Origin: Acidobacteria bacterium RIFCSPLOWO2_12_FULL_68_19
Lineage (GTDB): Bacteria > Acidobacteriota > Vicinamibacteria > Vicinamibacterales > UBA2999
Reading direction: 5' to 3'
NCBI GenBank assembly: GCA_001767525.1
Contig: MELF01000025.1
Span: forward strand, 1-64,000
Length of the DNA stretch: 64,000 nucleotides
This document shows positions 1,951 to 46,105 of the stretch, piece after piece. The position numbers were made by a program, and so were the translations under genes. The notes beneath the pieces were generated by a model. The model was not told where the DNA came from and searched no databases. It saw only the letters and a list, made by a program, of their open reading frames with translations. Every line of letters begins with the position of its first letter. Position 1 is the first letter of the stretch.

Positions 1951-2650
1951 CTACGGTGAAATCTTCACATAGACGGCGAACCAGCTGCTGTCGCCGGCTG
2001 GGCGTTCACGCTTGAAGACACCCATCAGCGCATAGGCGCTCGGCGCCGCGGGTGGCGTGGCCGTCGGCCCGGACAGTGGCAGCAGGATTGCGGACCCCAC
2101 TGGAACATACGCGTCCGATCCCGCGGGGCCCTGCGGACCTGTCGGGCCCCCTGGTCCTTGCAGACCGACAGGGCCCTGTTCGCCCTGAATCCCTTGCGAA
2201 CCCATCGGTCCCTCTGGACCCTGGGGCCCGGTCGCACCTGTGGGACCGGGCACACCCTGTGGACCTTGCAGCCCGGCTGGACCCTGCGGACCGACGAGAT
2301 CCGCGGCGGCACACCCGAAATCCGTTACGGCGGAGCCAACCGGAGTGACCGGGCAGAGATCGCCCGCGCCTGTCACACCGTCCAAGTCGGCGTCAGGCGA
2401 ATAGACCACCACCGAATGCGCCTGGCCTCCAGCGATCTGTAGCACCATGCCGCCTACATTGACGCTCCCGGCGGCGGCGGGGGTCTCGTCGTCGCCAATG
2501 CGACTCGTGTTCCCGTACCCCAGCTGACCCCAACTCCTTGGCCCCAGCAGCGCACGGCGCCTGCGTCCAGCAGCGCACACGTGTGTTGGATGCCACCAGT
2601 GAGCTGGACCACGCGACCGCCCACATCGACGGCGGCGGCCGTCACCGGAC
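1951..2650 (-). pseudogene. RCC1-repeat / thrombospondin-3-like / collagen-like protein, 5'-truncated and frameshifted
   Basis: Three modules are readable on the minus strand. First, RCC1 propeller repeats: [20 protein letters not shown] then GAVRCWGQ in one frame, continuing as [18 protein letters not shown] and GQAHSVVV in another frame, so there is a frameshift near 2545. Second, [15 protein letters not shown] with TPVG and GC, like thrombospondin type 3 / calcium-binding repeats. Third, about 19 collagen-like Gly-X-Y triplets (about 2119-2292), followed by a C-terminal domain ending at 1951. Nothing RCC1-like is left upstream of about 2650. An intact relative would be a long secreted or surface protein. 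Confidence 0.68.
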
Positions 2651-2726
2651 ACCTGTGAATGGTTCGTTGGCGATCTGTTCCTGAGCGCACGTGAGTCGCC
2701 CTCTTCCGCCTGAAGCCGGGTCGGAC

Positions 2727-2754
2727 GCACCCTCGCACCCTCGCACCCTCGCAC
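2727..2754. repeat. Octamer tandem repeat (GCACCCTC)
   Basis: Three and a half perfect copies of the 8-bp unit GCACCCTC lie between the 3' end of lolD and the broken RCC1/collagen gene. The same unit family recurs at 3438-3618 and 46048-46105. Confidence 0.85.
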
Positions 2755-2756
2755 GT

Positions 2757-3431
2757 CTAGATAGGGTGTAGTGTTCCCTGCTCCAGCCGCAGCACCCGGT
2801 CGCACGCGGCGGCGAGGCGCGGATTGTGCGTGGCGATGATCGACGTGAGCCCGTGCTCGGCGTGCATCTCCCGCAGCAGCCGATGGAGCGCGTCGGCGGT
2901 GTTCTCGTCGAGATCGCCCGTCGGCTCGTCGGCCAGCAGCAGCGCCGGTTGCATGACGAGCGCCCGCGCCACGGCGACGCGCTGCTGCTCTCCGCCCGAC
3001 ATCATCGCCGGCCGGTGCGCCAGCCGCTCACCGAGCCCCACGCGGACGAGCAGCTCGGTGGCCCGCCGCTCGGCCGTCTCGCGCGACACTCGGGCAATCC
3101 GCATCGGCATCGCGACGTTCTCGGACGCGTCGAATTCCGGCAGCAGATGGTGGAACTGGAACACGAAGCCGATGTTCCGGTTCCGAAACTCGACGAGCGC
3201 CGCGTCGGGCATCGCCGTCAGATCGGCGTCACCAACCCGGACCGCGCCGGCGTCGGAGCGGTCGAGGCCGCCGAGCAGGTGGAGGAGCGTGCTCTTGCCG
3301 ACGCCCGACGCGCCGACGATCGCCAGCATCTCCCCCGTCACGACCTCGAGGTCGAGGTCGCGCAGCACGTGAATCCGCTGGCTGCCCACGGAGTACGACT
3401 TGTTCAGCCCGCGAACGGTGACGAACGCCAT
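2757..3431 (-). CDS. lolD: Lipoprotein-releasing ABC transporter ATP-binding subunit LolD
   Basis: A 224-aa ABC ATPase. It has a Walker A motif GASGVGKST, a Q-loop region [12 protein letters not shown], the signature [15 protein letters not shown], and Walker [12 protein letters not shown] followed by the H-loop ATHN. Length and the FHHLLPEF segment fit LolD, which powers release of outer-membrane lipoproteins from the inner membrane with LolC/E. It is the last gene of the lysS-lolC-lolD run and follows the permease, but 188 bp of repeats separate the two. MacB-type ATPases are close relatives, so part of the certainty comes from the neighbouring permease. Confidence 0.9.
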
Positions 3432-3437
3432 GCTTCA

Positions 3438-3618
3438 GGTGCGACGGTGTCGATGGTGCGACGGTGCGATGGTGCGTCCGACGGTGCAATGGTACGAGGG
3501 TGCGGTGGTGCGTTCGAGGGTGCACTGCGCACCCGCCGTCGCACCGTCGCACCGTCGCACCGTCGGACGCACCGTCGCACCGTCGGACGCACCATCGCAC
3601 CGTCGCATCATCGCACCT
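3438..3618. repeat. Inverted pair of octamer repeat arrays between lolC/E and lolD
   Basis: The left arm (3438 to about 3527) is a run of GGTGCGAC-type units; the right arm (about 3528-3618) is its reverse complement, a run of GCACCGTC units. Both 8-bp units and 12-bp variants (GCACCGTCGGAC) occur. The whole gap between the stop of the permease and the start of lolD is filled. Transcribed RNA could fold into a long imperfect hairpin. No promoter or gene is visible inside. Confidence 0.85.
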
Positions 3619-3619
3619 C

Positions 3620-4843
3620 CTATTCGAACCTGAGGGCCTGGACGGGATCGAGCCGGGACGCCTGCCGCGACGGATAGATCGTCGCCAGGAAGCAGATGAG
3701 CACCGCCGACACGATGACCACGGCAAAATCGAGCGGCTGCACGACGAAGGGAACGTAGGCGATCTGATAGACGTCCATGGGGATGCGAATCAGACGGTAG
3801 CGGTCGAGCACCCAGCACAGCGCCACACCGGCCGAGGCGCCGACAGCGGTCCCGACAACCCCGATGGCGAGGCCCTGCAGCATGAAGATCGTCATGACGC
3901 GCCGCGACGAGGTCCCCATCGTCTTGAGAATGGCGATATCGCGCCCCTTCTCCATCACCAGGAGGATGAGCGAGGCGACGATATTGAGCGCCGCCACCAT
4001 GACGATCAGACCGATCGTGATCGAGATGGCCATCTTCTCGAGCCACAGCGCCGAGAAGAGCGCCTGGTTCATGTCGGCCCAGTCCTGGCTCACGTAGCCG
4101 CCGCCGAGCGCCTCGGGAATCGCCGCCGAGACGGCCGGCGCCGCCTCGATGTCGTCGACGCGCAGCTCGATCAGGTCGGGCGCGGCCTTCCCCAGCAGCC
4201 GCTCCGCGAAGGCGAGCGACACGAACCCGTACGCCGCGTCGAACTCGTACAGGCCGAGCACGTAGATGCCGGCGACCCGCACGCGGCGCGTCCGGGGAAT
4301 CATGCCCATCGGCGACAAGGTGCCCTGCGGCGTGAGGAGCGACGCGGTGTCGCCCACGTCGACGCCGAGCTGCTCGGCCAGGGCACGGCCGACGAGGATG
4401 CCGGGCAGCGCCTCCTCGGTCTTGGATTCGAGCCCCGCGATGCTGCCGCGTTCAATCGCGCGGCCGATGTCGGTCACGCTCGGCTCGAGCTCCGGATCGA
4501 CGCCCTTGAGGGAGATGAACGCATCGGCGCGAGCGGTCGAGATGAGCGCCTTGCCGAGGATGGCCGGACCGGCGCCCACCACGCCGTCGAGCTGTCGTAT
4601 CCGATCCACTTCGGCCCGGTAGTCGTCGATGCCGCCCGTCTTCCAGACGTAGACGTGGGCGGTCGATCCGAGGATGCGGTCGCGCAGCTCTCCCTGCAGT
4701 CCCGTCATCAGCGCCAGCGCGATGACGAGCGCCATGACGCCGACGGCGACGCCAATCGTGGAGATGAGCGAGATGACGGAGATGAACGCCTGCTTCCGGC
4801 GCGCCAGGAGGTAGCGGAGGGCGACGAACAGCTCGAACGTCAT
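3620..4843 (-). CDS. lolC: Lipoprotein-releasing system permease LolC/LolE
   Basis: A 407-aa FtsX/MacB-like permease. The N-terminus MTFELFVALRYLLARRKQAFISVISLISTIGVAVGVMAL is typical of LolC/E, with the first transmembrane helix followed by a large periplasmic domain. Three further helices are visible (about residues 270-300, 320-350 and 370-395) and the C-terminus PSRQASRLDPVQALRFE is the family signature. The protein extracts mature lipoproteins for transfer to the periplasmic carrier. Only one permease gene is present, so it may act as a homodimer (LolF-like). It is separated from lysS by 34 bp of TACCGGC-type repeats. Confidence 0.9.
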   Translation of the reverse strand: MTFELFVALRYLLARRKQAFISVISLISTIGVAVGVMALVIALALMTGLQGELRDRILGSTAHVYVWKTGGIDDYRAEVDRIRQLDGVVGAGPAILGKALISTARADAFISLKGVDPELEPSVTDIGRAIERGSIAGLESKTEEALPGILVGRALAEQLGVDVGDTASLLTPQGTLSPMGMIPRTRRVRVAGIYVLGLYEFDAAYGFVSLAFAERLLGKAAPDLIELRVDDIEAAPAVSAAIPEALGGGYVSQDWADMNQALFSALWLEKMAISITIGLIVMVAALNIVASLILLVMEKGRDIAILKTMGTSSRRVMTIFMLQGLAIGVVGTAVGASAGVALCWVLDRYRLIRIPMDVYQIAYVPFVVQPLDFAVVIVSAVLICFLATIYPSRQASRLDPVQALRFE

Positions 4844-4877
4844 GGCTACAGGCTACCGGCTACCGGCTACCACCTAC
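4844..4877. repeat. Heptamer tandem repeat (GGCTACC)
   Basis: Four to five copies of the 7-bp unit GGCTACC fill the gap between the lysS stop and the lolC/E start. On the coding (minus) strand the unit reads GGTAGCC. It is the same family as the long array at 27605-27721. Confidence 0.85.
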
Positions 4878-6376
4878 CTCGGCCTCATCAGCGGAAACAG
4901 GATTACGTCGCGAATCGAGTGGCTGTTGGTCAGCAGCATCACGAGCCGATCGATCCCGATTCCCGCTCCGGCCGCCGGGGGCATGCCGTACTCGAGGGCG
5001 CGAACGTAGTCCTCGTCGAGCGCGTGGGTCTGCTCCTGCCCGGCCGCCCGCGCGCTGAGCTGCGCTTCGAACCGCCGCCGCTGCTCCGCCGGGTCGTTCA
5101 GCTCGCTGAAGGCGTTGGCGATCTCCATCCCCGCCACGTACAGCTCGAACCGCTCGACCGTCTCCGGGTCGTCCTGCGTCTGCTTCGACAGCGGCGACAC
5201 CTCGGTCGGAAAGTCGTGCACGAAGGTCGGCTGGACGAGCTCGTCCTCGCACAGGCGCTCGAAGATGTCGACGGTAATGGCGCCCGCCTCCATGCCGGGC
5301 GTCACCTCGATCCCGAGCCGCGCCGCCAGCGCCGCCGCGCGGTCCCGCGCGCGCAGATCGCCCTCGGCGACCTCCACGCCCAGACGCCTCGAGGCCGCCG
5401 CCCGCACGGCCTCCCGCAGCCGCAGCCGCCGGAACGGCGCCTTCAGCGAGATGGCCCGATCGCCGTACTGCAGCTCGTCGGCGCCGAGCGCCTGTCGCGC
5501 CACGTCCACCAGCAGGTCCTCGGTGAGCGACATCAGGTCCGTGTAGTCGGCGTACGACCAGTAGAACTCCAGCATCGTGAACTCGGGATTGTGCTGCGCC
5601 GACATCCCTTCGTTGCGGAAGTTCCGATTGATCTCGAAGACGCGCTCGATGCCGCCGACGACCAGCCGCTTCAGGTACAGCTCGGGTGCGACGCGCATGT
5701 AGAGCGGGACGTCGAGCGCGTTGTGATGCGTCACGAACGGCCGCGCCAGCGCGCCGCCCGGGAGCGACTGCAGCATCGGCGTCTCGACCTCGAGGAACCC
5801 CCGCGCCACGAGGAACTCGCGAATCGCCGTCACCGCCCGGCTGCGCAGCTCGAACAACTGCCGCGCCTCCGGGTTGACGATCAGGTCGAGATAGCGCTGC
5901 CGGAAGCGAATCTCCACGTCGGTCAGGCCGTGCCACTTCTCCGGCAGCGGCAGCAGGCACTTGGCCAGGAACTCGAGCCGGGAGGCCCAGACCGTGAACT
6001 CCCTGGTCTTGGTGCGGAAGAGCCGCCCCTCGACGCCGACCCAGTCGCCGAAATCGAGCAGCTTGAAGATCCGGAAGTCGCGGGCGGGGAGCGAGTCCTC
6101 GCGGATGTACACCTGGATGCGCGCCTGCCCGTCGCCGAGCACCAGGAAGTTCGCCTTGCCGAAGCTGCGAATCGCGAGAATCCGGCCGGCGGTCCGAGTC
6201 GTGATGCGCGCGGCGTCGAGCTCCTCGGCCGACTTGCCGCCGTGCGCGGAGACGATCTCGGCGACCGTCGCCTGACGGTCGAAGCGGTTCGGGTAGGGCG
6301 CCACGCCGAGCCGGCGCAGCTCCTCGAGGTTGGCCCGCCGCTGGAGAACCTGATCGGAGTCCTCGGTCGTCGTCAT
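4874..6376 (-). CDS. lysS: Lysyl-tRNA synthetase, class II
   Basis: The 500-aa product charges tRNA-Lys. The N-terminal OB fold (about residues 50-150) contains TAGRILAIRSFGKANFLVL. The class II catalytic core shows motif 1 around FLEVETPMLQ, motif 2 RVFEINRNFRNEGMS with HNPEFTMLEFYW, and motif 3 GAGIGIDRLVMLLTN near the C-terminus. I chose the ATG at 6376-6374 because it overlaps the nusB stop as ATGA. Longer frames upstream are simply nusB read in another frame. The gene sits in a ribH-nusB-lysS-lolC-lolD transcription unit. Confidence 0.96.
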   Translation of the reverse strand: MTTTEDSDQVLQRRANLEELRRLGVAPYPNRFDRQATVAEIVSAHGGKSAEELDAARITTRTAGRILAIRSFGKANFLVLGDGQARIQVYIREDSLPARDFRIFKLLDFGDWVGVEGRLFRTKTREFTVWASRLEFLAKCLLPLPEKWHGLTDVEIRFRQRYLDLIVNPEARQLFELRSRAVTAIREFLVARGFLEVETPMLQSLPGGALARPFVTHHNALDVPLYMRVAPELYLKRLVVGGIERVFEINRNFRNEGMSAQHNPEFTMLEFYWSYADYTDLMSLTEDLLVDVARQALGADELQYGDRAISLKAPFRRLRLREAVRAAASRRLGVEVAEGDLRARDRAAALAARLGIEVTPGMEAGAITVDIFERLCEDELVQPTFVHDFPTEVSPLSKQTQDDPETVERFELYVAGMEIANAFSELNDPAEQRRRFEAQLSARAAGQEQTHALDEDYVRALEYGMPPAAGAGIGIDRLVMLLTNSHSIRDVILFPLMRPR

Positions 6377-22208: not shown

Positions 22209-22263
22209 TGGTAGATCCTACTTGTCTCCAGTCAGTGACTGAGTGTCAGCAAGACCCCCGTTC

Positions 22264-22296
22264 AAACCGTGCGTGCGGATTTCCCGCACACGGCTT
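22264..22296 (-). ncRNA. Group II intron domain V
   Basis: Thirty-three nucleotides fold into the catalytic hairpin. It carries an AGC triad near the 5' side, an 8-bp lower stem, a 2-nt bulge (CG) on the 3' side, a 5-bp upper stem and a GAAA-containing loop. This is the diagnostic structure of group II introns. It lies 26 bp downstream of the maturase stop. Confidence 0.85.
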
Positions 22297-22321
22297 ACCA
22301 GGTGGTCTTTGAATCGCCGCA

Positions 22322-23662
22322 TTACGCTGCTCCCGGATACTGAATCGTTCCGCGCAGCCGGCAGAGGCCCAATGTCTCGAAGAAGGGGCGATCCCATCGC
22401 ACGATCTGACCCGCCGCACACCGGCCGTTGGCGCGCTTGAGCCGCAAGCCGCGCAGCCGGCGTTCGACGTAGGCGTCAAGGTCGGTGAAGTGGTCCGCCG
22501 CGTTGCCTGTACGGAAATACTGTCCCCAGCCACGCAGCACCGGGTTGAGGTCCGCAATTACGAGGCGGAGGTCCTCATGGCACCGACGCCGCAGCGTGAG
22601 ATCTCGCACACGCTGGCGCACCCGACGCATCGCGCGCTGAGACGGCCATCGCTGCAGGTAGTAGACACGTTGTCGTGCCCGCTCCCAGATGGGTCCGCTC
22701 ATGCGCTTACGCAGGTGACACCCGAGAAAGTCGAAACCCTCACGGCCCCGTGAGAGATCAACGAGTCTCGTCTTCTCCGGATGTAGCTCAAGCCCGAGTC
22801 GCGTGAGCACGTGCTCGACGCGGCGGCGGGCTTCCTCGACCTGCGCGCGCGTGTCACACATCACCACGAAGTCATCGGCGTAGCGGACGAGCGTGCCCAC
22901 CCGCGCACACTTGTCCCCCCACACCCGGTCGAGGACATGCAGGTAGATGTTGGACAGCAACGGGGAGATCACGCCGCCTTGCGGTGTACCGGCACGCGTC
23001 TCGCGCCGCTGGCCATCCTCCATCACCCCGGCCGTGAGCCACTGCCGCAGCAGCTTCAGCACCCGCCGGTCCGAAATCCGCAGGCCGACCAGCTTGAGCA
23101 GCTTCGTCTGGTCGATGCTGCCGAAGTAGTCACGGATGTCCGCGTCCAGCACATGGTTGCCACCGCGCGCGCCGTGCACGCGCAGCGTTTCCAGTGCCTG
23201 GGTCGCACTGCGCTTGGGTCGGAAGCCGTACGATGACGCGCGGAAATCCGCTTCAAAGATCGGCTCCAGCACCAGCGTCGTCGCCATCGGCGCGACGCGA
23301 TCTCGTACCGTCGGAATACCGAGTGGCCGCTGACGGCCATCAGGCTTCGGGATGTACCGCCGCAAGACCGGAGGCGGCCGGTACGTGCCCGCTTGCAACA
23401 CGGCCTGAAGCTCGTCGAGCATGCGCTCCACGCCGTAGTGCTCGAGTGCGCCGAGCGTCTCGCGATCGACGCCCGCCGCGCCGCGGTTCGCCTTCACCCG
23501 CCGCCACGCCTCCTGGAGGACGTCACGCCTCCAGATCCGATCCATTAGCGCGTGGAAGCGGCGCTCCGGGGATCGCTTGGCCGCGACCCAGAGGTGGCGT
23601 TGCAATTGGCGCACTTTGTCGATGGGCGGACGCCCACCGGGGTGATTGGACCTCGCGGTCAT
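22322..23662 (-). CDS. ltrA: Group II intron reverse transcriptase/maturase
   Basis: A 446-aa protein. RT blocks are visible in order: VKANRGAAGVDRETL (RT0/1), RRYIPKPDGRQRPLGIPTVRDRV (RT2), SSYGFRPKRSATQALE, DADIRDYFGSID (RT3), GTPQGGVISPLLSNIYLHVLD (RT4), and LVRYADDFVVMC with the catalytic YADD (RT5). The maturase domain X follows: VLRGWGQYFRTGNAADHFTDLDAYVERRLRGLRLKR. The protein ends soon after, without an HNH endonuclease. I chose the ATG at 23662; the frame stays open to 24643, but that part is intron domains I-III and is not protein-like. It should be active by motif content. Confidence 0.92.
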   Translation of the reverse strand: MTARSNHPGGRPPIDKVRQLQRHLWVAAKRSPERRFHALMDRIWRRDVLQEAWRRVKANRGAAGVDRETLGALEHYGVERMLDELQAVLQAGTYRPPPVLRRYIPKPDGRQRPLGIPTVRDRVAPMATTLVLEPIFEADFRASSYGFRPKRSATQALETLRVHGARGGNHVLDADIRDYFGSIDQTKLLKLVGLRISDRRVLKLLRQWLTAGVMEDGQRRETRAGTPQGGVISPLLSNIYLHVLDRVWGDKCARVGTLVRYADDFVVMCDTRAQVEEARRRVEHVLTRLGLELHPEKTRLVDLSRGREGFDFLGCHLRKRMSGPIWERARQRVYYLQRWPSQRAMRRVRQRVRDLTLRRRCHEDLRLVIADLNPVLRGWGQYFRTGNAADHFTDLDAYVERRLRGLRLKRANGRCAAGQIVRWDRPFFETLGLCRLRGTIQYPGAA

Positions 23663-24225
23663 GCCCTTGCGCGTGCTTGCTCGACCACCATGACCACCGC
23701 AGGGACCCTTTGCTCCCCTCGCGTTGTTCGTCGCGAGGCTCGGCACTACTACGGTCCCCTCGGACGCCCGCTGCACCGCGCTCGACTTCGCCGTCGGCTT
23801 ATACGAGCCACGTCGCCCCGACCCGGGCTGTGCAGACGGGCCTCTCGTGTTCCGTTCCGCTCCATGTCCACGTGCTGCGCCCTGTACCCCGCCGAGACCT
23901 CCCGCGCGTGTTCCTCCGGACTGAGGCGCGGGAGACGTGGCCTTCGCCGAGACATGAGCGGCTCGGCTCTCGGGTTGTAACTGTGTCGAGGCTGCAGGCT
24001 TCACTTGATGTTGCGGCCCGCGGACTGGCTCCCTCCGAAGAGGCTCTTGACACCCCGCTCGGGCCACCGGGATTTCTCCCGACGCCTGGGGTCTGCTACT
24101 CGGCGCTCCGGCGCTTACCGAGGCGGGACTTGCACCCGCTGGAGAGGAACAGCGTGAAGCAGACGATCTGCTGTCTACTTCGTCACGACGCGACATGTCC
24201 GGCAGTATAGACCGCAGCGCGGGCC

Positions 24226-27604: not shown

Positions 27605-27721
27605 ACCAGCTACCGGCCACCAGCGACCGGCCACCGGCTACCGGCCACCACCTACCGGCCACCACCTACCGGCTACCGGCTACCGGCTACCGGCTACCGG
27701 CTACCGGCTACCGGCTACCGA
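27605..27721. repeat. Long heptamer tandem array (TACCGGC)
   Basis: About 16 copies of a 7-bp unit, mostly TACCGGC with variants CACCGGC, CACCACC and GACCGGC. The last seven copies before 27721 are nearly identical. The array fills the gap between the acyl-CoA dehydrogenase start and the divergent barrel-like gene, so both promoters must lie in or beside it. Confidence 0.92.
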
Positions 27722-30734: not shown

Positions 30735-30749
30735 GCTGCTCAGTGTAAG

Positions 30750-30812
30750 GCGTTGGTGTTGGGTGTTGGGCGTTGGGCCTTGGACGTTGGGCCTTGGGTC
30801 TTGGGTGTTGAG
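30750..30812. repeat. Heptamer tandem repeat (GTTGGGC / CTTGGGC)
   Basis: About nine imperfect 7-bp units, such as TGTTGGG, CGTTGGG, CCTTGGG and TCTTGGG. They fill the whole gap between the DnaC-like gene stop and the hemW start. Confidence 0.87.
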
Positions 30813-33370: not shown

Positions 33371-33450
33371 CGTCAACGCCCAATCGCCACCGCCCAACGC
33401 CCAAGAGCGATTCGGGCATTGGGAGTTGGAAGTTGGGACTTGGGAGTTGT
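33371..33450. repeat. Heptamer repeats in both orientations (GCCCAAC and AGTTGGG)
   Basis: The left half has GCCCAAC/GCCCAAG units, the right half GAGTTGG/ACTTGGG units, so the two halves are roughly inverted. It fills the dnaK-dnaJ gap and could form an RNA hairpin in the operon transcript. Confidence 0.8.
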
Positions 33451-38290: not shown

Positions 38291-40060
38291 TCAGGGAAAC
38301 AACGCCGGCGGCACGCGCCGCCGCGTCGCCTGCTCGAAGGCGTAGGCCAGCGCGAGCAGCCGCGGCTCGCTGCACGCGGTCCCGGTGAAGCTGACCCCGA
38401 ACGGCGCCGGGCGGGCGTCGAAGCCCGCCGGAAACGGCGGCGTCGGCGCGGTCGGCACGAGGGCGAACGGCACGATGACCGTCGGGTAGCCCGGCCTCGC
38501 CGCCAGCGCCGCGCCGGTCGAACCTGGAAAGAGCAGCGCGTCCAGCCGGTCGGTGCCGAGCGCCTCGTCGATGCCGTGTGCGCCGCCAACCAACAGGTCC
38601 TTTCGCCGGTCGGCCTCGTAGCGCCGCCGGTCGCGTCCGAGGTCGATCTCGTCCGAGACGTCCAGATTCTGCTGTCCGTACTTCAACGTGCCGGCGCCGT
38701 GATGGTCCAGGTTCCACCGGCGGAGTTCGGCGAGCGTCCTGACCGGCGCCGCATGGCCGAGCGAGGCGAGCCATGCGCCGAAGTCGCGCTTCATGCCGTA
38801 CTTGAACACAATCGAGCAGTCCCGATCCCGGCCGCGGGCGTTCTCCACGCCCGAACAGATGCTCCAGGCCAGAAAGTTTCGATCCCGCTCGGGATCGACG
38901 ACGCTGGGGATGTCCGCGGGATCGACGATCGTGGCACCTTCCCGCTTCAGGATGGCGATGGCTTCCTCCATCGCCTCGCGCTGCCCTGGCGTCAGGCCGC
39001 CTCGTCCCTCGACGCTGCCAGGGACGCCCCGAGCGGGCGTCGTGGGGCGCGGCTCGGCCGCGCCGGGCGGCGTCACGCGGTCGTAGAAGAACGCGCGCGG
39101 GATACCGATGCGTGCGCCCTCGAGCGCGCCGCGGTCGAGAAACTGCGTGTAGTCCCCGGCGGGCGGCCGACCGCAGGCGCCTGTGGCCGGATCGTTCGGG
39201 TCGGGCGCGGCTCCCTCCAGCACGCCGAGCAGCACCGCGGCGTCGGCGACCGACCGCGCCATGGGGCCGGCCGTGTCCTGATCCGCGCTGATCGGGATGA
39301 TTCCGTACCGGCTGATCCGCCCTACCGTCGGCTTGATGCCGACAAGCATCGTCTGGTTCGACGGGCTGAGGATCGATCCGGAAGTCTCGGTACCGACGTT
39401 TGCCGCCCAGAAGCTCACGGCGGTCCCGATGCCCGAACTGGATCCGCCGGTCGGGAGGGCCGGACGGCCGTCGCGCGTCGCGACGCGCGGATCGCGCCTC
39501 GGATCGTAGGGATTGAATCCGTATCCGGTCAGGCTGTTGTAGTTGGGCGGCATACCGACCGTCACCCAGTTGGCGAGCTCCGTCATCTGGGTCTTCGCCA
39601 GGAGGACGGCGCCCGCGTCGCGGAGATGCCGCGTCACGGTCGCCTCGTAGGGCGGCACCAGCCCCGCAAACGCCAGCGCGCCGCCGGTGGTCGGCATGTC
39701 CGTGGTGTGGATGTTGTCCTTGAGGGCGATCGGAATGCCGTGAAGCGGCCCACGGAGGCGGCCCGCGGCCCGCTCACGGTCGCGCTCGGCCGCCTCGTCG
39801 AGCGCGCGGCGGTTGACCGTGATGACGGCGTTCAGTTGATCCTCGTAGAGCGCGATGCGCGTCAACGACTCCTGCACCAGCTCGCGCGAGGTGACGCGCC
39901 CCTCCGCCATCGCCCGCTGCATCTCGACGATGCTCGCCTCGACGACGGAGAACGAGGACGTTTGAGCGGACGGCGTGAGCGTCGCCGCGGCGAGAGCCGC
40001 GGCGACAAGGGCCCGAGGCCTGGGGCCTGCGGCCTTGGGCCTGCTAGTACGCCATCGCAT
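38291..40060 (-). CDS. Amidase-signature family hydrolase, secreted
   Basis: A 589-aa amidase. The catalytic Ser-cisSer-Lys residues are visible: GPLHGIPIALKDNIHT (Lys), LPTGGSSSGIGTAVSF (cis-Ser), and GTETSGSILSPSNQ (nucleophile Ser). RYGIIPISADQDTAGPMARSVADAA follows. The N-terminus MRWRTSRPKAAGPRPRALVAAALAAATLTPSAQ reads as a signal peptide, but its first third is encoded by CCTGGGG-type repeats. It would cleave an amide, substrate unknown. It overlaps the gamma-glutamyltransferase stop by 17 bp. Confidence 0.9.
   Translation of the reverse strand: MRWRTSRPKAAGPRPRALVAAALAAATLTPSAQTSSFSVVEASIVEMQRAMAEGRVTSRELVQESLTRIALYEDQLNAVITVNRRALDEAAERDRERAAGRLRGPLHGIPIALKDNIHTTDMPTTGGALAFAGLVPPYEATVTRHLRDAGAVLLAKTQMTELANWVTVGMPPNYNSLTGYGFNPYDPRRDPRVATRDGRPALPTGGSSSGIGTAVSFWAANVGTETSGSILSPSNQTMLVGIKPTVGRISRYGIIPISADQDTAGPMARSVADAAVLLGVLEGAAPDPNDPATGACGRPPAGDYTQFLDRGALEGARIGIPRAFFYDRVTPPGAAEPRPTTPARGVPGSVEGRGGLTPGQREAMEEAIAILKREGATIVDPADIPSVVDPERDRNFLAWSICSGVENARGRDRDCSIVFKYGMKRDFGAWLASLGHAAPVRTLAELRRWNLDHHGAGTLKYGQQNLDVSDEIDLGRDRRRYEADRRKDLLVGGAHGIDEALGTDRLDALLFPGSTGAALAARPGYPTVIVPFALVPTAPTPPFPAGFDARPAPFGVSFTGTACSEPRLLALAYAFEQATRRRVPPALFP
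40010..40044. repeat. Heptamer repeat (CCTGGGG/CCTTGGG)
   Basis: Four to five 7-bp units (CCTGGGG, CCTGCGG, CCTTGGG, CCTGCTA) overlap the amidase 5' end and stop at the end of the gamma-glutamyltransferase gene. They encode part of the amidase signal peptide. Confidence 0.7.
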
Positions 40061-41898: not shown

Positions 41899-43845
41899 CT
41901 ACCTCGCGCTGGCAGAAGTCGTTGTCGTGCGCGTCAGGAGCTCCCAGTGCTCGTACCCGCGGTTGACCACCGTGTCGACGTCCTCCGCGAGCACGTACCG
42001 ATCGCGCACGAGCGCGTCGGTCACCTCGCGCACCTTGGCGAGATACGCGCCGCGGCTCGGGTACCGCTCCTCGATCGACGGTCGCGGATCGCGGCGGGCG
42101 TCGCGCTCGGCCTGCGTGCGAGCGAACGGAATATAGGAACCGGTGTTGCCCACCAGACGGGCGGTTCCGCCGATCTCCGGGTTCCGGAAATTCCAGCCGG
42201 TGTAGGTGGCGAGCGGCACGGCGACTTCCGACAGGCGAATTCCGGCCACTTCGTTGCCGTCGGCGTCGGTCTGCGACACCAGGAGCGGCTGGACCGCGCC
42301 TTCCCCACCGCTCGCCGGCAGCAGCCCATTGAAGGCGCGGCGGCCCGGCGCGACCGCGCGCGGCGACTGAACGCCCGGGATCGCCGGAAACGCCAGATCC
42401 TGCGCCCGGACGAGCGTCCGGTCGGCCAGCCGCGGATGCCGGCTCGGCGGCGGCGCCGTGCCCTCCCTCACCCAGCGGTCGAGCGCAACGAGCAGCGCGC
42501 GCAGCGACAGCGTGTAATCGAGCGGGTTCGCCCGCTGCTGGCCACGGCCGGCGGCCGGGGGCGGGAACGGCCCCGGCGTATGCTGGGCGCCCGCGAAGAG
42601 ATACGCCCGCACGTTGTCGCCGAGCGCCGCGTCGCGCATGCCGTCGGGCGTCGTGTGGACGAGGGCCGCGGCGCGGCCGGTATCGATCCAGTACTCGACG
42701 CTGCTGTTGGTCAGGAAGAGCTTCGGCTGGTGGCGGCGCGCCCGGTCGTTCTCGAGCAGCCCCTCGGTGGCGCCGGTGACCGCATCCCGGTCGGCGCGAT
42801 CGGCGAACGGGAACGTGCCGACAAAGGCGTTGCCGGCGGTCGGCGTCGAGCCGCGGCGGTTGATATCGATCCGGGCGGCGCCGGCAATGTGCGCGATCAC
42901 GCCGTCGAAGACGAGCCGCTCGCGCTCGTCGGCGTTGAAGCCGAGATAGAGGAACTCGCGCAGGAATCGCCCCGTCTGCGACTGCCCGAACGCATAGACG
43001 TACTTCGCGGGCGTCACGGCGTCGGCGGAGTGCTTGGCCCAGCTCGCAATGTCCCGGACTGCGGCCAGACCGAGCCCGGCGATCGGCGGATTGGCCACCT
43101 CATAGGCGGCCTCATAGACACGTCCGGGCTCGAACCCCCCGTCGAGTGAGACGGCGTCGCCGGCGATCCGCCACTGGCTGCGCGGAATCGTCTGCGGCGC
43201 GTCCGACAGGCGGTCGCGCACGGTCAGCACGCTGTCGGGGCCGTCGGGATCGGACGGCGCATAGGCCGGCACGTCGTCGGCGAGCCGGTAGGTCGGCGCG
43301 CGGCGGTCCACTTCGATCAACGTCCGGACGATCCCGGTAACGCCCTGCGCCGCCGGCGCCTGAATGCGCAGCCCGCCTCCGCCCGCGGGCAGGTCGAACT
43401 CCCAGCCGACAGCGATCACCGTGAAGCCGCGCCGCAGCAGGAACCCATCGCCAACGTCGGGATCGCTCCCGGCCGTCACGCGGTTGAACATCCGCGTGAC
43501 CCTGTTGCCACGGTTCACGACGTCCACGATGGCGACGCCGTTGCCGCCGGTCTTCGGCCGCAGCGCGTAGAAGTCGGCCGAGAACTCCACGCGTCCCTGG
43601 GCGTTCGGCGGCGCGGCGTCGAGGTCGACGATGACCGCGTTGCGCCGGCCGGCCGGATCGACGGCGAAATAGACGCGCCCCTCGAGCTTCTCGTATCCCG
43701 CATACGAGAGGTCGCTCCGCTTCAGGACCTCGACGCGCGTCACCTCGGCGTGGGCGGCGGCGGCGAACGCGAACAGGAGCACCGGAACGCCGAACCGGAC
43801 CGGAACACGAACCCGGAACCGAGAACCCGGAAGCGTGAACGACAT
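41899..43845 (-). CDS. Secreted alpha/beta hydrolase (Abhydrolase_10-like)
   Basis: A 648-aa protein from the ATG at 43845; an ATG 9 bp upstream (43854) also overlaps the M20 stop as ATGA. A basic leader (MSFTLPGSRFRVRVPVRFG) and hydrophobic stretch ending AAAAHA form a signal peptide. A beta-rich N-terminal part (about residues 30-240) precedes an alpha/beta hydrolase domain with the nucleophile elbow YAFGQSQTGRFLREFLYLGFN. FDGVIAHIAGAARIDINRRGS and TNSSVEYW follow. Similar proteins are common in Acidobacteriota; the substrate is unknown. It lies in the M20-Abhydrolase-GGT-amidase run. Confidence 0.85.
   Translation of the reverse strand: MSFTLPGSRFRVRVPVRFGVPVLLFAFAAAAHAEVTRVEVLKRSDLSYAGYEKLEGRVYFAVDPAGRRNAVIVDLDAAPPNAQGRVEFSADFYALRPKTGGNGVAIVDVVNRGNRVTRMFNRVTAGSDPDVGDGFLLRRGFTVIAVGWEFDLPAGGGGLRIQAPAAQGVTGIVRTLIEVDRRAPTYRLADDVPAYAPSDPDGPDSVLTVRDRLSDAPQTIPRSQWRIAGDAVSLDGGFEPGRVYEAAYEVANPPIAGLGLAAVRDIASWAKHSADAVTPAKYVYAFGQSQTGRFLREFLYLGFNADERERLVFDGVIAHIAGAARIDINRRGSTPTAGNAFVGTFPFADRADRDAVTGATEGLLENDRARRHQPKLFLTNSSVEYWIDTGRAAALVHTTPDGMRDAALGDNVRAYLFAGAQHTPGPFPPPAAGRGQQRANPLDYTLSLRALLVALDRWVREGTAPPPSRHPRLADRTLVRAQDLAFPAIPGVQSPRAVAPGRRAFNGLLPASGGEGAVQPLLVSQTDADGNEVAGIRLSEVAVPLATYTGWNFRNPEIGGTARLVGNTGSYIPFARTQAERDARRDPRPSIEERYPSRGAYLAKVREVTDALVRDRYVLAEDVDTVVNRGYEHWELLTRTTTTSASAR
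43782..43840. repeat. Heptamer-type repeat (CGGAACC/ACCCGGA)
   Basis: Imperfect 7-bp units (CCGGAAC, GCCGAAC, CCGGAAC, CGAGAAC, CCCGGAA) lie inside the signal-peptide region of the Abhydrolase gene, so the leader sequence is partly repeat DNA. Confidence 0.6.
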
Positions 43846-45803: not shown

Positions 45804-46047
45804 TCTACATCGTCACCAGCACCCCCTCGCGGGCGCGACGGGGACGCCGCGGTCACGAGCACGAGCTGTGCCATGCGCCGGGGCGACCGCCCTCAGCCGG
45901 TTTCCCTCAAGAATTCCCGCCGCGCAGCCCCAGGGTTTCGATAGACGTGTTCATTTCTGCCGCCGCCGGATGCGGCCTGCGTGGAGGCGGTGCGCAAGAT
46001 GTCCGGCTTCCCCGCATAGCGGTCCAGGCACATGAAGTGGCGGTCGC
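45804..46047. other. Gap without a recognisable gene
   Basis: No convincing gene. A short minus-strand frame contains DRHFM, also found at the membrane end of the neighbouring coiled-coil gene, which may be a trace of local duplication, but the match is only five residues. Confidence 0.35.
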
Positions 46048-46105
46048 GCACCGTCGCACCCTCGCACTCTCGGACGCACCATCGCACCCTCGCACCCTCG
46101 CACCG
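46048..46105. repeat. Octamer tandem repeat (GCACCCTC)
   Basis: Six or seven units: GCACCGTC, GCACCCTC, a 12-bp variant with CGGAC, GCACCATC, GCACCCTC twice and GCACCGTT. They end exactly at the prfB stop codon. Same unit family and same 8/12-bp pattern as 3438-3618. Confidence 0.87.

Follow-up and report, generated by a model that had tools for sequence, protein, structure and literature searches.

Facing octamer arrays in the lolC-lolD gap of an Acidobacteriota genome: a probable copy of a dispersed, mobile-like intergenic repeat

G-rich heptamers (GGGAATC and GGGGA(C/T)T) have been described in Xanthomonas and Nostoc, and it was proposed that they form quadruplexes (Rehm et al., 2015; PMC4692102). 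As reported there, these heptamers (i) are intergenic and lie mostly between aligned genes, divergent gaps being avoided; (ii) carry their G-rich strand antisense before a start codon or sense after a stop codon, within 50 bp; (iii) prefer four units; and (iv) also occur as convergent pairs, of which 70 and 75 cases were counted in two Xanthomonas genomes. No known function is given for them there. Three further systems can be compared with the repeat presented here: REP/BIME/REPIN sequences (PMC3733652, PMC3116915, PMC12306157), the BrickBuilt MITE of Porphyromonas gingivalis (PMC4596501), and the TAACTGA repeats of Beggiatoaceae (PMC4679880).

The repeat was studied in a stretch of 64,000 nucleotides (hereafter, the window) from the 4.2 Mb draft genome (G000, 52 contigs) of a member of the Acidobacteriota. 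There, 188 bp separate the stop codon of a lolC/E-like gene (3620-3622, minus strand) from the ATG of a lolD-like gene (3429-3431). As the original prediction had it, this gap is made up almost wholly of two opposed arrays of one 8/12-bp unit, which face each other and in which 12-mers (GGTGCGTCCGAN) stand among octamers (Table 1). Direct-repeat families with 8-, 12- and 20-base spacing can be distinguished in the gap, and its inverted arms are complementary at 91% over 46 nt and at 82% over 61 nt. The names of both genes are those of their best NCBIfam matches, which score under the curated cut-offs (347.5 bits vs. 362.45 for lolC/E; 265.6 vs. 307.75 for lolD). Just downstream of lolD, the translation of an open reading frame (1951-2805, minus strand) looks, by eye, like RCC1-type repeats with collagen-like GPQGPAG repeats after them.

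Table 1. Repeat arrays and the genes next to the lolC-lolD gap, in positions of the window.
Feature	Position	Strand	Basis or remark
First arm, GGTGCGAN octamers and 12-mers	3438..3524	+	Repeat search; outer end 6 bp from lolD start codon
Second arm, NTCGCACC on the plus strand	3528..3617	-	Repeat search; in lolC sense, begins 2 nt past TAG stop
Gene for LolC/E-like permease, upstream of the gap	3620..4843	-	TIGR02212, under cut-off
Gene for LolD-like ATPase, downstream of the gap	2757..3431	-	TIGR02211, under cut-off
Short octamer array immediately past lolD stop, G-rich strand sense	2726..2754	-	
Further octamer-family copy; outer end 1 bp past TAA stop	46047..46104	-	
Heptamer (GGTAGNN) array in lysS-lolC gap, phased on lysS TAG stop	4844..4878	-	
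Longer array of the GGTAGNN heptamer family	27605..27720	-	

The octamer arrays resemble the Xanthomonas and Nostoc heptamers in that both are dispersed tandem G-rich intergenic units with the same placement, with convergent pairs and with four units. They differ from them in the unit itself (an octamer with a 12-mer insert), in a longer common outer sequence, in belonging to the Acidobacteriota, in having almost no three-tetrad potential, and in the near-empty sites found in relatives. With REP/BIME/REPIN sequences they share an extragenic position, inverted doublets in one order only and the formation of hairpins; likewise, some REP copies are reported to lie no more than 15 nt from a stop codon. 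But their arms are octamer arrays and not palindromes of 20-40 bp tagged GTAG or CGTC: the octamer-family 12-mer contains CGTCCGACG, and inspection by eye revealed no palindromic unit with either tag. Besides, no RAYT is linked to the arrays here, and single arrays are not less conserved than doublets. The BrickBuilt element, too, has tandem units within a dispersed intergenic element with inverted ends; it is described, however, as holding a 23-nt direct repeat between small inverted ends and as lying 49-591 nt from genes, whereas the octamer inverted arms are the repeats themselves and lie much nearer to genes. Finally, TAACTGA repeats are also dispersed short-unit arrays set by gene ends, some of which overlap stop codons, but they are described as lying mostly in one orientation directly before start codons, with inverted pairs almost absent. 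All three of these systems are more distant parallels than the G-rich heptamers. In a literature search at the level of titles and abstract openings, covering few subscription journals, no earlier description in Acidobacteria was recognised.

The octamer array is not special to the lolC-lolD gap, because exact matches to the two-unit pattern CGCACCNTCGCACC number 323 in this genome (the reversed control gave 1) and are spread over about 50 loci. When the arrays were compared with the genome by BLAST, 142 matches were obtained in the 40 scored of 86 candidate places. Defining an octamer array by at least four exact GGTGCG hits, there are 62 arrays in this genome and 12 in two relatives. Of 43 genomes from the same taxonomic family, 12 carry a 22-base pattern, G000 being one of them. 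A 26-base core, in turn, occurs 60 times here but is absent from 395 further genomes sampled across the phylum, a sample in which three bearers of related arrays (G001, G010, G015) were not represented. Plasmids, phages and viral contigs gave no match to the repeat. An unusual density is seen in the first 36 kb of contig C13 (L061 and L062), with 15 octamer arrays of at least four units.

Regarding their anatomy, the arrays have an outer consensus that reads, outward from the neighbouring gene, (GGTGCGAN)4 GGTGCGTCCGAN (GGTGCGAN)2 GGTGC, while their inner parts vary. In 41 of the 74 arrays (62 from this genome and 12 from relatives), the distance from the first GGTGCG to the start of the 12-mer is 31-33 nt. 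Since the full idealised head is matched exactly in only 3/74, it must be taken as a consensus and not as a fixed sequence. The variable eighth base of GGTGCGAN is C in 179, G in 126, T in 24 and A in 1 of 330 units of this genome. An Rfam search matched a group II intron as the sole family; it lies at 22224-24141 of the window (minus strand), with two Rfam matches and a reverse transcriptase domain at 22712-23353.

Opposite octamer arrays that lie at most 700 bp apart have the order GGTGCG> <CGCACC in 17 out of 17 cases, the reversed order being absent, although these facing pairs are not independent trials, since the array copies have a common ancestry. A recount with at most 250 bp between arrays and down to two units gave 12 pairs in this genome and 5 in G015, none of them <>. 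In every facing pair, the G-rich strand begins next to the gene and runs outward from it. Moreover, arrays lie nearer to a gene end than expected at random: over 23 gaps with at least 60 bp unfilled, the mean fraction was 0.114 vs. an expected 0.25, and 0 of 20,000 simulations gave a value as low. In the co-directional gaps of this test, the nearer end was a stop in 10 and a start in 4. Of the single octamer arrays in co-directional gaps, 10 have their outer end by the stop codon and 6 by the start codon, and hence stop-anchoring is weak for the octamer family alone. Gene ends were taken from our own heuristic for open reading frames, with uncertain start codons and approximate distances to starts; 4 of the 35 listed outer-stop junctions of octamer arrays have no true stop codon. 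A length-weighted null for gap size was set aside, gene calls spanning just 77% of the window. An enrichment of TAG among the stops beside octamer arrays was considered and discarded (14/27 vs. 24/61, which is not striking).

The same geometry is found in a second family, the GGTAGNN heptamers, which is unrelated to the octamers. With up to one mismatch allowed, the heptamer pattern has 316 matches genome-wide (control, 0), and 53 arrays were read. Facing pairs follow the >< order in 7/7 cases at four units or more, and in 15 cases, none reversed, at two units or more; for single heptamer arrays, the polarity counted as above for single octamer arrays is 18 to 5. Of 30 heptamer outer ends near a predicted stop (3 of these 30 junctions had no true stop), 20 keep the phase of that stop, which then serves as the TAG of a unit, and the first unit is usually CTAGNN. 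Stops at heptamer arrays are TAG in 19, TGA in 5 and TAA in 3 cases, vs. TGA 37, TAG 34 and TAA 8 for other genes. The polarity rule is, however, not universal for short arrays, as 99 other arrays of 6-10 bp units lack a consistent direction of G-skew at stops (13/28); at starts, they show some consistency (28/37). Within the window, heptamer-type arrays with other units are seen at 30749-30810, 33374-33449, 40009-40044 and 43800-43840, and the one at 33374-33449 has the order opposite to that of the octamer pairs (C-rich first).

Three gene junctions were compared among relatives. At the lolC-lolD junction, the stop and start codons overlap in a relative of the same genus (G001, TGATG), as well as in G003 and G005. 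Among 16 genomes, including the present one, there is an overlap or a gap of at most 9 bp in 6, a gap of 28-42 bp in 3, and one of at least 91 bp in 7. Octamers occupy the site in only two of these 16, G000 and G004, the array of the latter being one-sided and in a single orientation. An earlier lolC-lolD set, with genomes partly shared, agrees (of 23 named loci found, the gap could be read in 17). Because lolC and lolD overlap in the same-genus relative, the array is best regarded as an insertion. Longer lolC-lolD gaps in other genera carry other short repeats, such as a GGCATTC-like heptamer in G024. Unrelated short repeats, some of them inverted, are also seen in the gaps of L204, L207 and L209 (G024, G025 and G029; other families of the order).

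At argS, octamers are present in one of 14 relatives (G010), as a facing pair after a TAG, and several relatives have 0-15 bp. Between ftsW and murG, GGTGCG-type units follow the stop in 6 of 15 genomes (G000, G001, G014, G010, G005, G004); of the remainder, 7 show an overlap or no more than 9 bp, and 2 show other sequence. When the three proteins were placed on a FastTree tree, genomes with filled and with empty sites were intermixed; as several nodes have weak support, recurrent insertion is not distinguishable from recurrent loss. The lolC-lolD, argS and ftsW-murG junctions, which are filled in only some of the relatives, offer natural before-and-after pairs for the study of operon expression.

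We read the gap, with reasonable though not full confidence, as holding a single member of a repeat family that is non-coding, intergenic and dispersed, this member having been inserted as a facing pair in an ancestor; the family itself is best seen as a mobile-like repeat that is tolerated in the space from a stop codon to the next start codon. Its half-unit, of about 65-75 nt, would typically comprise four GGTGCGAN octamers, then GGTGCGTCCGAN, then two octamers, and would occur singly or in facing pairs. In an ancestor of the species, one such pair would have entered the junction of lolC and lolD, which in relatives is an overlap or measures a few bases, and the pair would have survived because both of its outer ends fall short of the stop and start codons. 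Copies would spread by a copying process and not arise locally, while the number of units may drift by slippage.

This reading draws on the dispersal of the matches, the common outer sequence, the polarity of the pairs, the near-empty sites in relatives, the position of the arrays close to gene ends, and the parallel geometry published for Xanthomonas and Nostoc. Several results bear on the origin of the arrays. Similarity between the arms of a pair does not exceed that between arms taken across loci (0.918 vs. 0.914; permutation p 0.35), which makes a local inverted duplication unlikely, and the same within-pair similarity gives no sign of compensatory pairing between arms. Single arrays are conserved at 0.920 (38 arrays) and pair arms at 0.914 (24). 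No target-site duplication of at least 3 bp was found in the 16 of 17 pairs usable for this test, which a 2-bp duplication would escape; the mean longest shared k of the flanks was 2.06, vs. 2.42 for shuffled flanks. No transposase dedicated or linked to the octamer arrays was found among the Y1_Tnp and rve genes examined. Given these last two results, we infer mobility from the distribution of the arrays; conservation, target duplication and transposases, taken together, favour a mobile-like dispersed repeat.

A less likely possibility is a classical MITE or REPIN, in which the pair would be the replicating unit, the transposase would act in trans, and single arrays would be decayed remnants. 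The shared outer ends in inverted order do constitute terminal inverted repeats, as expected of a MITE; this order is fixed and the outer ends are conserved; similar palindromic centres are recognised by eye at the array ends of the G015 and G010 copies; and one octamer pair encloses a relic of an rve-domain transposase (L057, 2252-2515). Yet the lack of target-site duplications of 3 bp or more speaks against it, as does the conservation of single arrays, which equals that of pair arms, unlike that reported for REPIN singlets (PMC3116915). Furthermore, a second copy of the rve gene does not have arrays on both sides, and the only Y1_Tnp gene in the assembly is flanked by a palindrome that differs from the octamers. 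This Y1 transposase (L093) has a perfect 24-nt inverted pair, GGGGTCAGACCCGGGGTCTGACCC, at 1215-1238 and 2002-2025, which probably represents the gene's own REP-like ends.

That the arrays are plain simple-sequence repeats, generated by independent polymerase slippage at each locus and polarised by chance or composition, is improbable. Unit numbers are indeed variable, and many other arrays of 6-10 bp units exist in these genomes, mostly without consistent polarity at stops; but an identical unit, together with the 12-mer, recurs at about 50 unrelated loci, and reversed-order pairs are absent in two families.

A regulatory hairpin specific to lolCD, acting as an attenuator or stabiliser that sets the ratio of permease to ATPase, is likewise hard to credit, in spite of a very strong predicted fold. 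The RNA of 3431-3625 folds at -142.4 (minus strand) and -148.3 (plus strand) kcal/mol, vs. shuffle means of -86.5 and -90.1 kcal/mol (z = -12.2 and -12.9, respectively), and 0 of 200 shuffles reach the native energy. The long imperfect hairpin expected just before lolD is thus borne out by the predicted fold, provided that lolC and lolD share a single transcript. The accompanying idea, that such a structure is unusual for an export operon, is not supported, since the same family occupies about 50 loci, including the ftsW-murG and argS junctions. As for a conserved inverted layout in relatives, the sequence is not conserved: the gap is an overlap in G001, and octamers are found in it in only 1 of 15 relatives. 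As a layout, it recurs in part. Among 11 long lolC-lolD gaps (the 805-bp gap of G029 was left out), 5 fold better than shuffles, at z <= -2.7 (G000, G025, G027, L031, L035), and 6 do not. Hairpin-forming inverted gaps therefore occur in a minority of relatives, with sequences unrelated to the octamers; the inverted repeats of G025, G027, L031 and L035 favour a local role, while the six gaps that fold like shuffles weigh against it. The stretch 2600-5000 yielded neither a promoter-like pattern nor a terminator-like one (a GC-rich stem with a U run after it), and the lack of the latter is a further point against a hairpin specific to lolCD. A hairpin that holds stop and start close together was also discarded, as 10 of the 11 gaps showed no clear shortening of the exterior path relative to shuffles, G004 standing at p 0.045.

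On the reading as a dispersed repeat, an effect on the mRNA is nonetheless plausible by analogy with REPs. In earlier work, REPs located less than 16 nt from a stop codon are reported to have lowered translation (PMC12306157), and here the octamer array begins 2 nt from the lolC stop. If active, the hairpin might behave less as a terminator than as a REP/BIME-like structure after a stop, which would either protect the mRNA upstream of it or uncouple the translation of lolD.

Very little probability is assigned to another idea, namely, that the outward polarity was left by a single general process in which G-rich units of 7-8 nt are added to DNA 3' ends at gene-junction breaks, anchored to the stop codon by microhomology. 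Two extended ends would then give a >< pair, in a manner similar to telomere fusion, and one extended end a single array. If true, this would account for the missing target-site duplication and for the geometry common to the octamers, the heptamers and the Xanthomonas and Nostoc units without a common quadruplex potential; however, it is countered by the other arrays of 6-10 bp, given their inconsistent polarity at stops, and by the genome having just two RVT_1 matches, one of them in a group II intron. With so few matches, RNA-templated addition of repeats was retained solely as part of this improbable idea.

Hardly credible, lastly, are G-quadruplex elements like the Xanthomonas GGGAATC repeats, in spite of a placement and polarity that agree with those reported (PMC4692102), as four GGG runs with loops of 1-7 occur in only 2 of the 62 octamer arrays, in 0 of the 53 heptamer arrays and in neither arm of the window, counts on which a role for three-tetrad quadruplexes was rejected. 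A placement rule known from the quadruplex-forming heptamers of Xanthomonas and Nostoc recurs in a further phylum, where it is followed by octamers and heptamers barely able to form the three-tetrad type, which weakens the quadruplex as the cause of the rule and points to insertion or retention. A two-tetrad quadruplex is possible in 56 of the 62 octamer arrays and in 52 of the 53 heptamer arrays.
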